From positions 3,906,001-3,970,000 of the forward strand of contig NZ_CP125957.1 of NCBI RefSeq assembly GCF_030064125.1: DNA of 64,000 nt, given 5' to 3'. This document shows positions 34,411 to 40,580 of this stretch, piece by piece. Under the pieces are notes generated by a model. It was not told where the DNA came from. It ran no database searches and saw only the letters and a list, made by a program, of their open reading frames with translations. The stretch's first letter is position 1. Each line of letters begins with the position of its first letter. Source of the DNA: Pseudomonas sp. G2-4. Lineage in GTDB: Bacteria > Pseudomonadota > Gammaproteobacteria > Pseudomonadales > Pseudomonadaceae. Both the position numbers and the translations under genes were made by a program.

Positions 34411-34418
34411 TGTGGGAG
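34411..34418. repeat. Left piece of a family B REP split by an IS element
   Basis: TGTGGGAG is the first 8 bp of a family B REP. Its continuation (CGAGCTTGCTCGCGATAGC) resumes at 35596 on the far side of the IS110 element. Joined, they give an exact mirror of the intact arm at 35651-35677. Confidence 0.85.
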
Positions 34419-34441
34419 ATTCTATGGTGCAGGGCTACCCC

Positions 34442-35389
34442 CTAAATGCCTTTCGGTAAGTATTCGCTCTGATTCTTCAGCAGGGCGAATACCACTCGGG
34501 CAAGCTTGCGGGCCAGTGCCACTAATGCTTCGGTTGTGCTGAGTCCCCGGGCCCTTAGTGCCTCATAAAAACCCTTCCATGCCGCTGTGCGCCTCGCCGA
34601 CATCGCGGCGTTGTGCATCAATCGACGGGCCTCTGGGTCACCTCGCTTAGACAGGCAGCGGCGTCCCTTCTTTTTCCCTGAGTCCGATATACGCAGGTCT
34701 AGGCCCAGAAAAGCGATGAAGGCATCGGCATTTCTGAAATCCCCACGCTGAAACGACGTGAGCAAACGGGCACCGTTCAACAGGCCAATGCCTTCGACTT
34801 TCATGCAGCGCTTGAGCTGAGCGCCCAAGCCAGCGGCTTCCAACTGCGTCTGGATTGTTTTCTCGAGCAAGATCTCCAGTCGTTGCATGGCCTTTATCTG
34901 GTTCTCAAAGGCCCTTTTGAGCAACGGTTCGTTGGACCAACTTTGCTTGAGGCTGACACGCGCCTGGACCAAGGCTGCCCGACGCCGGAAGAGGCTTATA
35001 AGCCGGCAATACAAGGGCGATGGCGGGGTCCACGGGTGCAACTGGTGGCCTTCGTTGTTCAAGTAGCGAGCCAACAACCGAGCATCCAGCGCATCGGTTT
35101 TAGCGCGAACTTTCACACCTTTGCGGTAATGGCTGAGCTCGTAGCCGCCGATCATGTAGATCACACAGCCTTGCGCATAAGCCAGATCGGCGAATTCCTG
35201 ATGATAGATATTGGTGGCTTCGATGGCGACATCCACTGGCGCGGACAATTCCTTGAGCCACTTCTTGATCGCTGCCTTGGTGTTGGGGATCGCTTCCAGT
35301 CGATCTGTTTCTGCGTGATAAATCACCAACTCATCTTTGGCGACATCAACACCCACGATCGGCTTTGCGACAGAAACCGGCATTGCCAT
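34442..35389 (-). CDS. IS110-family transposase (DEDD recombinase)
   Basis: It encodes 315 residues. The RuvC-like N-terminal domain supplies the DEDD residues Asp15 (IVGVDVAKDE), Glu57 (VAIEATN), Asp99 and Asp102 (KTDALDARLLARY). The C-terminal Transposase_20 domain has VEGIGLLNGARLLTSF and DSGKKKGRRCLSKRGDPEAR with the conserved serine. A GGAGG lies 7-11 bp before the ATG at 35389. The frame is complete, so the element may be active. IS110 enzymes use an RNA encoded in the element to choose target and donor sites; here the long non-coding end is 5' of the gene, as in the IS110 subgroup rather than IS1111. Confidence 0.95.
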   Translation of the reverse strand: MAMPVSVAKPIVGVDVAKDELVIYHAETDRLEAIPNTKAAIKKWLKELSAPVDVAIEATNIYHQEFADLAYAQGCVIYMIGGYELSHYRKGVKVRAKTDALDARLLARYLNNEGHQLHPWTPPSPLYCRLISLFRRRAALVQARVSLKQSWSNEPLLKRAFENQIKAMQRLEILLEKTIQTQLEAAGLGAQLKRCMKVEGIGLLNGARLLTSFQRGDFRNADAFIAFLGLDLRISDSGKKKGRRCLSKRGDPEARRLMHNAAMSARRTAAWKGFYEALRARGLSTTEALVALARKLARVVFALLKNQSEYLPKGI

Positions 35390-35401
35390 TGAAAATCCTC
35401 C

Positions 35402-35595
35402 GGGCTAAGGTTTGAACACTTGAAGGGTTCACCCAGAGGCGCAGGCTTGTTCCTATCGTCGGTCTAGGCCAGATGCATTCTTTATCGGCGCTTGGGTGAA
35501 AGGAGGAGGGGTGAAATCTCCCACGGTCTGTACTGCGGCTAACAGTCAGAATCGAGCTTTGTCCCTCCTCCTCCCTTCAAGTCCTACCATACAAG
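35402..35595 (-). ncRNA. Candidate IS110 bridge RNA
   Basis: On the transposase strand, this non-coding end can fold into two stem-loops. Hairpin 1 has a perfect 9-bp stem (35563-35571 with 35502-35510). Its loop carries AAGCTCG (35559-35553), identical to the left REP flank, and GTGGGAG (35524-35518), complementary to the right flank. Hairpin 2 has stems 35494-35500 with 35428-35434 and 35488-35491 with 35439-35442. Its loop carries GATAAAGAAT and GATAGGAACAAG, which partly match the element's right end (ATAGAAT) and the complement of its left end (CCATACAAG). The order matches the target-binding and donor-binding loops of known IS110 bridge RNAs. Transcription is not shown. Confidence 0.7.
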
Positions 35596-35677
35596 CGAGC
35601 TTGCTCGCGATAGCCATTTAACGGTCAATATTTCTGTCCACTGACCCGCCGCTATCGCGAGCAAGCTCGCTCCCACA
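35596..35677. repeat. Family B REPIN, left arm split by the IS110 element
   Basis: The remainder of the left arm is at 35596-35614. The intact right arm is at 35651-35677, ending TCGCGAGCAAGCTCGCTCCC plus ACA. The left arm's missing 8 bp are at 34411-34418, before the IS element. Confidence 0.85.
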
Positions 35678-40509: not shown

Positions 40510-40580
40510 TCGCGAGCAAGCTCGCTCCCACAGGTTTTGTGCCCACTGGAGAGCCAGTGTGGGAGCGAGCTTGCTCGCGA
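40510..40580. repeat. Family B REPIN, inverted order
   Basis: REPs are at 40510-40532 (TCGCGAGCAAGCTCGCTCCC) and 40558-40580 (TGTGGGAGCGAGCTTGCTCG). The arms face outward relative to most pairs in this window. Confidence 0.9.

Follow-up and report, generated by a model that had tools for sequence, protein, structure and literature searches.

An IS110-family element inside a Pseudomonas REP, and the co-variation of predicted bridge RNA guides with their targets among its relatives

The stretch of DNA that we analysed (64,000 nucleotides of contig NZ_CP125957.1 of Pseudomonas sp. G2-4, hereafter the window) carries an IS110-family element on its minus strand. The element spans 1,177 bp when counted with one CT core (34419-35595, Table 1) and interrupts a REP: joining both flanks restores the intact repeat, ..GCTATCGCGAGCAAGCTCG-CT-CCCACAGGG.. 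An earlier reading made from the sequence alone (the sequence-only reading) had recognised the insertion of an IS110 element in a REP. This part of it stands, but the extent then given (34411-35614) takes in pieces of the REP. The genome (6.65 Mb) was found to contain three copies, all of them inside REPs, at GCAAGCTCG-CT...CT-CCCACA. The two other copies occupy the same REP position and show no difference across the 1,150 bp compared. We searched for the element among 72,556 plasmid records and found no match. The layout is that of the IS110 group, with a left end (LE) of 206 bp upstream of the gene and 23 bp from the stop codon to the right core. The interrupted REP belongs to an inverted (REPIN-like) pair of REPs, whose other arm, at 35651-35677, has kept its match to the guide intact. 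There are more inverted REP pairs within the window, e.g., at 40516/40559 and 45050/45121. Tandem REP arrays, regularly spaced at about 135, 108, and 136 bp, were seen at G111:C1:3267-4767, G094:C2:1636722-1637605, and G000:C1:923873-924978.

The recombinase scored above the cut-off for two domains, PF01548 (E 4.3e-21) and PF02371 (E 6.3e-16). It also matched NF033542, which NCBIfam names "IS110 family RNA-guided transposase", with 176.5 bits (cut-off 140). Its length lies within the range of the family (DEDD plus Transposase_20, about 300-460 aa). Residues 11-306 align to the solved recombinase of IS621 (8wt6, E 3.5e-19), and in this alignment, inspected by eye, GVDVAKD, IEAT, KTDALDAR, and DSG stand opposite the catalytic D, E, D, D, and Ser motifs of IS621 (residues named as in PMC11208158). 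Judged by its sequence, the element is a member of the IS110 family, IS110 group. The recombinase also matched, weakly, the NCBIfam model for the RNA-guided endonuclease TIGR-Tas (E 1.1e-7, 32 bits, cut-off 100).

Table 1. Features of the element and of the REP that it interrupts (positions in the window).
Feature	Position	Strand	Basis or remark
IS110-family element	34419..35595	-	boundaries from three copies at different sites; coordinates computed
Right-target half of interrupted REP, TGTGGG	34411..34416	+	
Second CT core (right junction)	34417..34418	-	first core = 35594-35595
Right end / left donor ATAGAAT	34419..34425	-	used in element selection, no independent test
DEDD recombinase (transposase), 315 aa	34442..35389	-	PF01548, PF02371, NF033542, alignment to IS621 8wt6
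Predicted bridge RNA, about 165 nt, two hairpins and closing terminal stem	35418..35582	-	folds of 12 left ends, pair counts; ends are fold ends
Terminal stem 3' arm, CCCTTCAAGT	35418..35427	-	
Putative right donor guide ATAGGAACAAG	35446..35456	-	discontinuous pairing of AT and ACAAG with CTTGTAT possible
Putative left donor guide region GATAAAGAATGC	35475..35486	-	resembles right end ATAGAAT; position and sequence only
Right target guide GTGGGAG	35518..35524 (LE 72-78)	-	complementary to core and right REP flank, CTCCCAC
Small stem-loop separating target guides, TCTGACTG...CAGTACAGA	35527..35550	-	
Left target guide AAGCTCG	35553..35559 (LE 37-43)	-	identical to left REP flank
Terminal stem 5' arm, ACTTGAAGGG	35573..35582	-	
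Left end / right donor CTTGTAT (core plus TGTAT)	35589..35595	-	used in element selection, no independent test
Left-target half of interrupted REP, CGAGCTTGCTCGCGATAGCC	35596..35615	+	

Relatives of the element were collected in several samples. A scan of genome contigs yielded 47 loci. At least 56 of the 398 genomes of a genus sample had a match at 1e-30, with at most five candidates scored per genome; in an order sample, 6 of the 390 genomes had one at 1e-60 (the element's own genome counted). We fetched 100 further places listed in the genus search, which cover some genomes in part (G340 2/5, G213 3/4, G139 2/4). This gave 180 loci with a recombinase match, of which 16 were dropped because they had no end recognisable by the motifs CTTGTATG / ATAGAATCT. 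The remaining 164 loci yielded 146 distinct insertions, de-duplicated by their flanks, which together with 8 from other genera make up a final set of 154 distinct insertions and 61 unique left ends among the matches listed. Since a CT core and the end motifs were both required in this selection, insertions without them would be missed. The right flank at the core (gene strand) was CTCCYAC in 151 of the 154 insertions, and the position and orientation of insertion are therefore nearly fixed. In genome G080, the loci L083 and L152-L154 show the left target and guide CAAGCCGCC, whereas the usual right end ATAGAATCT is absent within 160 nt; they have nearly identical downstream sequence in common, which contains a REP-like stretch.

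The left end is predicted to fold into a bridge RNA. Two hairpins had been proposed in the 5' non-coding end, and the fold of the window element's left end agrees with them, but a terminal stem around both has to be added. Of 12 left ends folded, 10 have the two hairpins closed by such a stem, the window element's included. The left ends of L171 and L182 fold without such a stem, and the interior of the donor hairpin differs among the 12 folds. No Rfam family matches the left end. The two target guides flank a small stem-loop inside one hairpin, left then right, and meet at the core. The identity of the left guide with the left REP flank, the complementarity of the right guide to the CT core and the right flank, and the order of the two are as the sequence-only reading had them. 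When the left end was shuffled 100,000 times with its dinucleotides preserved, AAGCTCG occurred in 994 of the shuffles, GTGGGAG in 2,293, and both in 23, counts that take no account of order and position. The left guide of the window element is followed by AT instead of CT, so it would not pair with the first base of the core.

The second hairpin could fit the element's own ends, ATAGAAT-CT-TGTAT, in the manner of IS621, by means of GATAAAGAATGC and ATAGGAACAAG. The putative donor loop has the pattern AT-n(2-4)-RCAAG in 55 of the 61 left-end units, plus a GAAT motif, and the donor is nearly invariant. Because the donor hardly varies, the putative donor guides were assigned by resemblance. With regard to a promoter that would be reconstituted across the predicted circle junction, a -35-like match was better there than in the flank in 53 of 55 left ends (3.22 vs 1.55 of 6); at the window element's own predicted junction the match is poor (TAGCCC, 3/6). 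In one relative, L077 of genome G091, the left end measures just 121 nt: the donor-binding hairpin is absent from it, the target loop is kept, and the recombinase frame is still open. The hairpin was apparently lost by deletion between CCCCTTC repeats.

We then asked how far the stems co-vary among left ends. RNAalifold, applied to 52 left ends as aligned by MAFFT, missed the target-loop stem and indicated little covariation (-0.28). The sequences were re-anchored on the stem after this result, which gave an alignment of 44 of the 55 unique left ends (42 distinct) that we compared with 500 shuffles. Paired cells made up 87.8%, vs 83.5% in shuffles (0/500) and 33-48% with slid partners. The covariation score was 0.100 vs 0.034 (0/500), and six pairs had a double change vs 3.4, a number reached by 7 of the 500 shuffles. 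The number of pair types was not above that of the shuffles in this alignment (11 vs 11.1, reached by 328/500), and the slid-partner controls equalled it once (11 at +3). One pair of the target-loop stem occurs as A-U, U-A, and C-G. In one subclade of the alignment, the outer donor stem is shifted out of register; when it is read apart from the alignment, it changes from TCACC/GGTGA to CTACC/GGTAG. A lack of covariation in the two stems had been named in advance as an observation that would speak against the bridge RNA. We found instead 42 double-change cells against 13.9 in shuffles (0/500), with one of the five measures null. The stem covariation appears moderate, and the two-hairpin structure recurs across the left ends of the stem-anchored alignment.

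Guides were located by a conserved anchor that lies outside the guide. The identity between a left guide and its own target was 6.16/7, vs 4.86 (sd 0.10) with shuffled guides (0/20,000; 61 left-end units, 154 insertions). The result was similar when left ends were collapsed to 17 guide types (5.65 vs 4.30, 0/20,000; 54 units, 145 insertions), a test in which L182 has no guide anchor, although it is included in that of the 61 units. Six of the seven left-target positions (-7 to -2) co-vary with the guide, with at most 2/5,000 shuffles each, although these shuffles ignore relatedness; position -1 varies too little in the 61 units to tell. Relatedness was considered in a test on the recombinase tree, where 16 disjoint pairs gave 13 for, 1 against, and 2 ties (p 0.0018). 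These pairs were non-overlapping, with different guides and different majority targets, and two frames were allowed in both the observed data and the null. This test was revised after a first result was known: with looser guide anchoring, 18 pairs had given 9 for, 3 against, and 6 ties (p 0.15). The first version took the wrong stretch as the guide of L048, had a fixed frame unsuited to L155, L167, and L169, and allowed pairs with equal main targets. The guide co-varies with the target across orthologues, as in bridge RNA systems, with the first tree-pair test not significant. The right guide is effectively of 7 nt: taken over eight bases, it matched at 8/8 in 13, at 7/8 in 136, and at 6/8 in 5 of the 154 insertions, and by our own reading the usual miss is the outermost base.

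Three insertions have no CTCCYAC at the core: L157 lies at a weak site (CTCTCAC), and the distant L048 and L188 have guides that fit their own different flanks. L048, from a Woeseiaceae MAG, targets CGGTCCG-CT-TTATTC, which is unlike the Pseudomonas REP, and its guides CGGTCCG and GAATAAAG match both sides. Other elements outside the genus include L186, where guide and target are both AAGCACG at a REP-like site, and L190 and two more, with guide AAGCAAG and target GGGCAAG. Equal guides at unrelated sites would have spoken against RNA guiding, and such cases are largely lacking. The left guide matched its target exactly in 82 insertions, at six positions in 48, and at five or fewer of 7 in 24 of the 154. 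In L039 and L066, which are the same insertion at TTGGTAG-CT-CCCACATTTGGTAG with guide AAGCCCG, the right side only matches. The element of L066 is flanked by an 18-bp direct repeat, CTCCCACATTTGGTAGCT (L066 2640-2720), so that only the right guide fits. A claim of wobble pairing was dropped, since the mismatches of the 17-guide-type test comprised 31 wobble-compatible ones vs 29 A:C and 52 transversions.

Two explanations that make no use of a guide were considered here. The recombinase might read the REP DNA, or a cruciform formed by it, the likeness of the loop to the REP being incidental. REPs are indeed palindromic, and a fixed point of the REP is likewise the insertion site of ISPsy8, an element with two transposase ORFs (PMC1525189). 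Yet insertion takes place at the edge of the palindrome and not at its axis, in a single orientation, loop and target vary together among relatives, and L048 is found in a sequence that is not REP-like, with guides that fit it. We regard recognition by the protein on its own as very unlikely. It is still less likely that the left end is merely a regulatory 5' UTR or antisense-RNA region, whose REP match would come from pairing with REP-containing transcripts. Such a role has been proposed for ISPpu9, which has two sRNAs besides a structured 244-nt 5' UTR and transposes more when extra Asr9 is supplied (PMC8450116). This explanation leaves unaccounted for a two-sided, strand-specific match that ends at the core and co-varies with the insertion site. 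Regulation could nevertheless coexist with guiding.

Agreement between guide and target could reflect only differences between hosts in their REPs. We therefore counted REP variants in each genome (AAGCTCG, AGGCTCG, and AAGCCCG, each followed by CTCCYAC). The census covered 36 genomes, of which we used the 22 whose elements carry one of these three guides. They hold 68 insertions, 63 of which are in counted variants; the five outside them were set aside. Of these 63 insertions, 51 match the guide exactly, vs 35.3 expected from the mix of variants of each genome (0/200,000). For example, the guide of G039 is AAGCTCG, which makes up 27% of the counted sites (census 334/291/628), and five out of five insertions are in AAGCTCG (including L007 and L040, which are outside the 154). 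In G251, all five insertions are in AAGCCCG, the variant of the guide, which accounts for 36% of the counted sites (census 609/51/376). In G204, G289, and G266, all six AGGCTCG-guided insertions fell into AAGCTCG, which differs by one base, and targets are mixed in G100, G111, G125, G139, and G213. Ten of the 12 inexact hits of this test were wobble-compatible, by our own reading of the table and uncorrected for availability. AAGCTCG represents 929 of the 1,193 counted sites of the window genome, so that the element's own three insertions out of three are uninformative alone.

That the guide predicts the variant used within a genome argues further against recognition by the protein on its own. 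It also means that REP copies are unequal as targets: the sequence-only reading had held every copy in the genome to be a potential one, which is too broad. The agreement might otherwise stem from identity by descent, or from conversion of the loop by flanking REPs, with no selection by RNA. Guides do often, though not in every case, equal the commonest REP variant of the host, and related elements have guides in common. However, insertions were de-duplicated by their flanks and lie at different sites, the chosen variant was not the commonest of the three counted in G039, G204, and G251, and gene conversion accounts for no insertion preference. We consider this the least probable of the three alternatives.

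Similar systems have been described. Insertion into REPs by ISPpu9, ISPpu10, and ISPa11 was reported in 2006 (PMC1525189), and in 2024 IS110 and IS1111 elements were shown to be guided by RNA, in work on the bridge RNA (PMC11208160) and the seekRNA (PMC11187229). In the former study (Durrant 2024), bridge RNAs are predicted for ISPpu10 and ISPa11 among others, and covariation is reported across 5,511 target pairs; the latter (Siddiquee 2024) examines the seekRNA of the REP-targeting ISPa11. The element resembles IS621 in its DEDD and serine recombinase, in the non-coding end upstream of the gene, in having CT as the core, a REP as the target, and CTTGTAT as the right donor, in its short subterminal ATA/TAT repeats, and in its predicted RNA of two loops, where the left target guide precedes the right one (PMC11208160, PMC11208158). 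It differs in several details. The left guide is here of 7 nt, mostly without CT after it, whereas the nine of IS621 include the core; the right guide is of 7 nt, whereas that of IS621 has 4, extendable to 7. The predicted terminal stem closes both hairpins, whereas descriptions of IS621 give a 5' stem loop. The right donor guide of IS621 pairs discontinuously (PMC11208158), and the gap within the putative one looks longer here. The REP family is the Pseudomonas one.

The pairing of the core dinucleotide with both target guides, a detail of IS621, was not found: the right guide alone ends in AG, and the two bases after the left guide are AT in 40, CT in 11, CA in 9, and AA in 1 of the 61 units. 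As the left guide stops before the core in most of the lineage, the core would be read by the right guide only. Core pairing with both guides is not a criterion of the family, and we did not file the element as IS621-type. Compared by description, the element is like ISPpu10 and ISPpu9 of Pseudomonas putida in targeting Pseudomonas REPs, with all copies at one REP position, and in the two-base repeats at its junctions (PMC1525189). The sRNA of ISPpu9, of about 180 nt, sits downstream of the gene (PMC8450116), where the 23-bp right end of our element would be too short. RNA-guided insertion and a REP target in Pseudomonas are common to ISPa11 with its seekRNA and to this element, for which guiding is predicted from sequence. 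Unlike the latter, ISPa11 belongs to the IS1111 family, has its RNA downstream of the transposase gene, and shows the target matches in reversed order (PMC11187229).

We conclude, with a probability of about 94%, that this is an autonomous IS110-group insertion sequence working with a bridge RNA. An RNA transcribed from the left end would bind the DEDD/serine recombinase encoded by the element, its donor-binding loop would pair with the RE-LE junction of an excised circle, and recombination at CT would put the element into the REP in one orientation. We infer transcription, RNA binding, donor pairing, and the circle intermediate from the comparison of sequences. The comparative tests support the RNA-guided explanation that the sequence-only reading had offered for the landing of such elements in REPs, although this explanation was already published for relatives. 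Since the mechanism and the predictions for REP-targeting elements date from 2024, the element is a clear further example and not a new mechanism. We regard the finding as correct and well supported, and as ordinary in kind. In a search of open-access literature, we found no paper measuring the choice of guides among Pseudomonas REP variants.

For one lineage, these results answer the question of how IS110 elements find REPs, by a principle that was already published for relatives. What they add to the known mechanism is a natural retargeting series, in which guides and chosen repeats change together across relatives. They provide natural, availability-corrected evidence that an IS110 bridge RNA, through its guide, chooses among genomic repeats that are nearly identical. 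The 17 anchored guide types are ready-made variants for measuring the tolerance of mismatches and wobbles, and the guide variants are usable in finding compact recombinases with 7+7-nt target recognition. Somewhat speculatively, the lineage may be seen as a natural series of retargeted bridge RNAs that tracks the turnover of Pseudomonas REPs mainly by point changes of the left guide, while the donor guides, the core, and, with few exceptions, the right guide stay fixed. A guide that carries G or U at variable positions would then tolerate a second REP variant by wobble. Such a process would amount to a co-adaptation of host and mobile element that may be readable in genomes.
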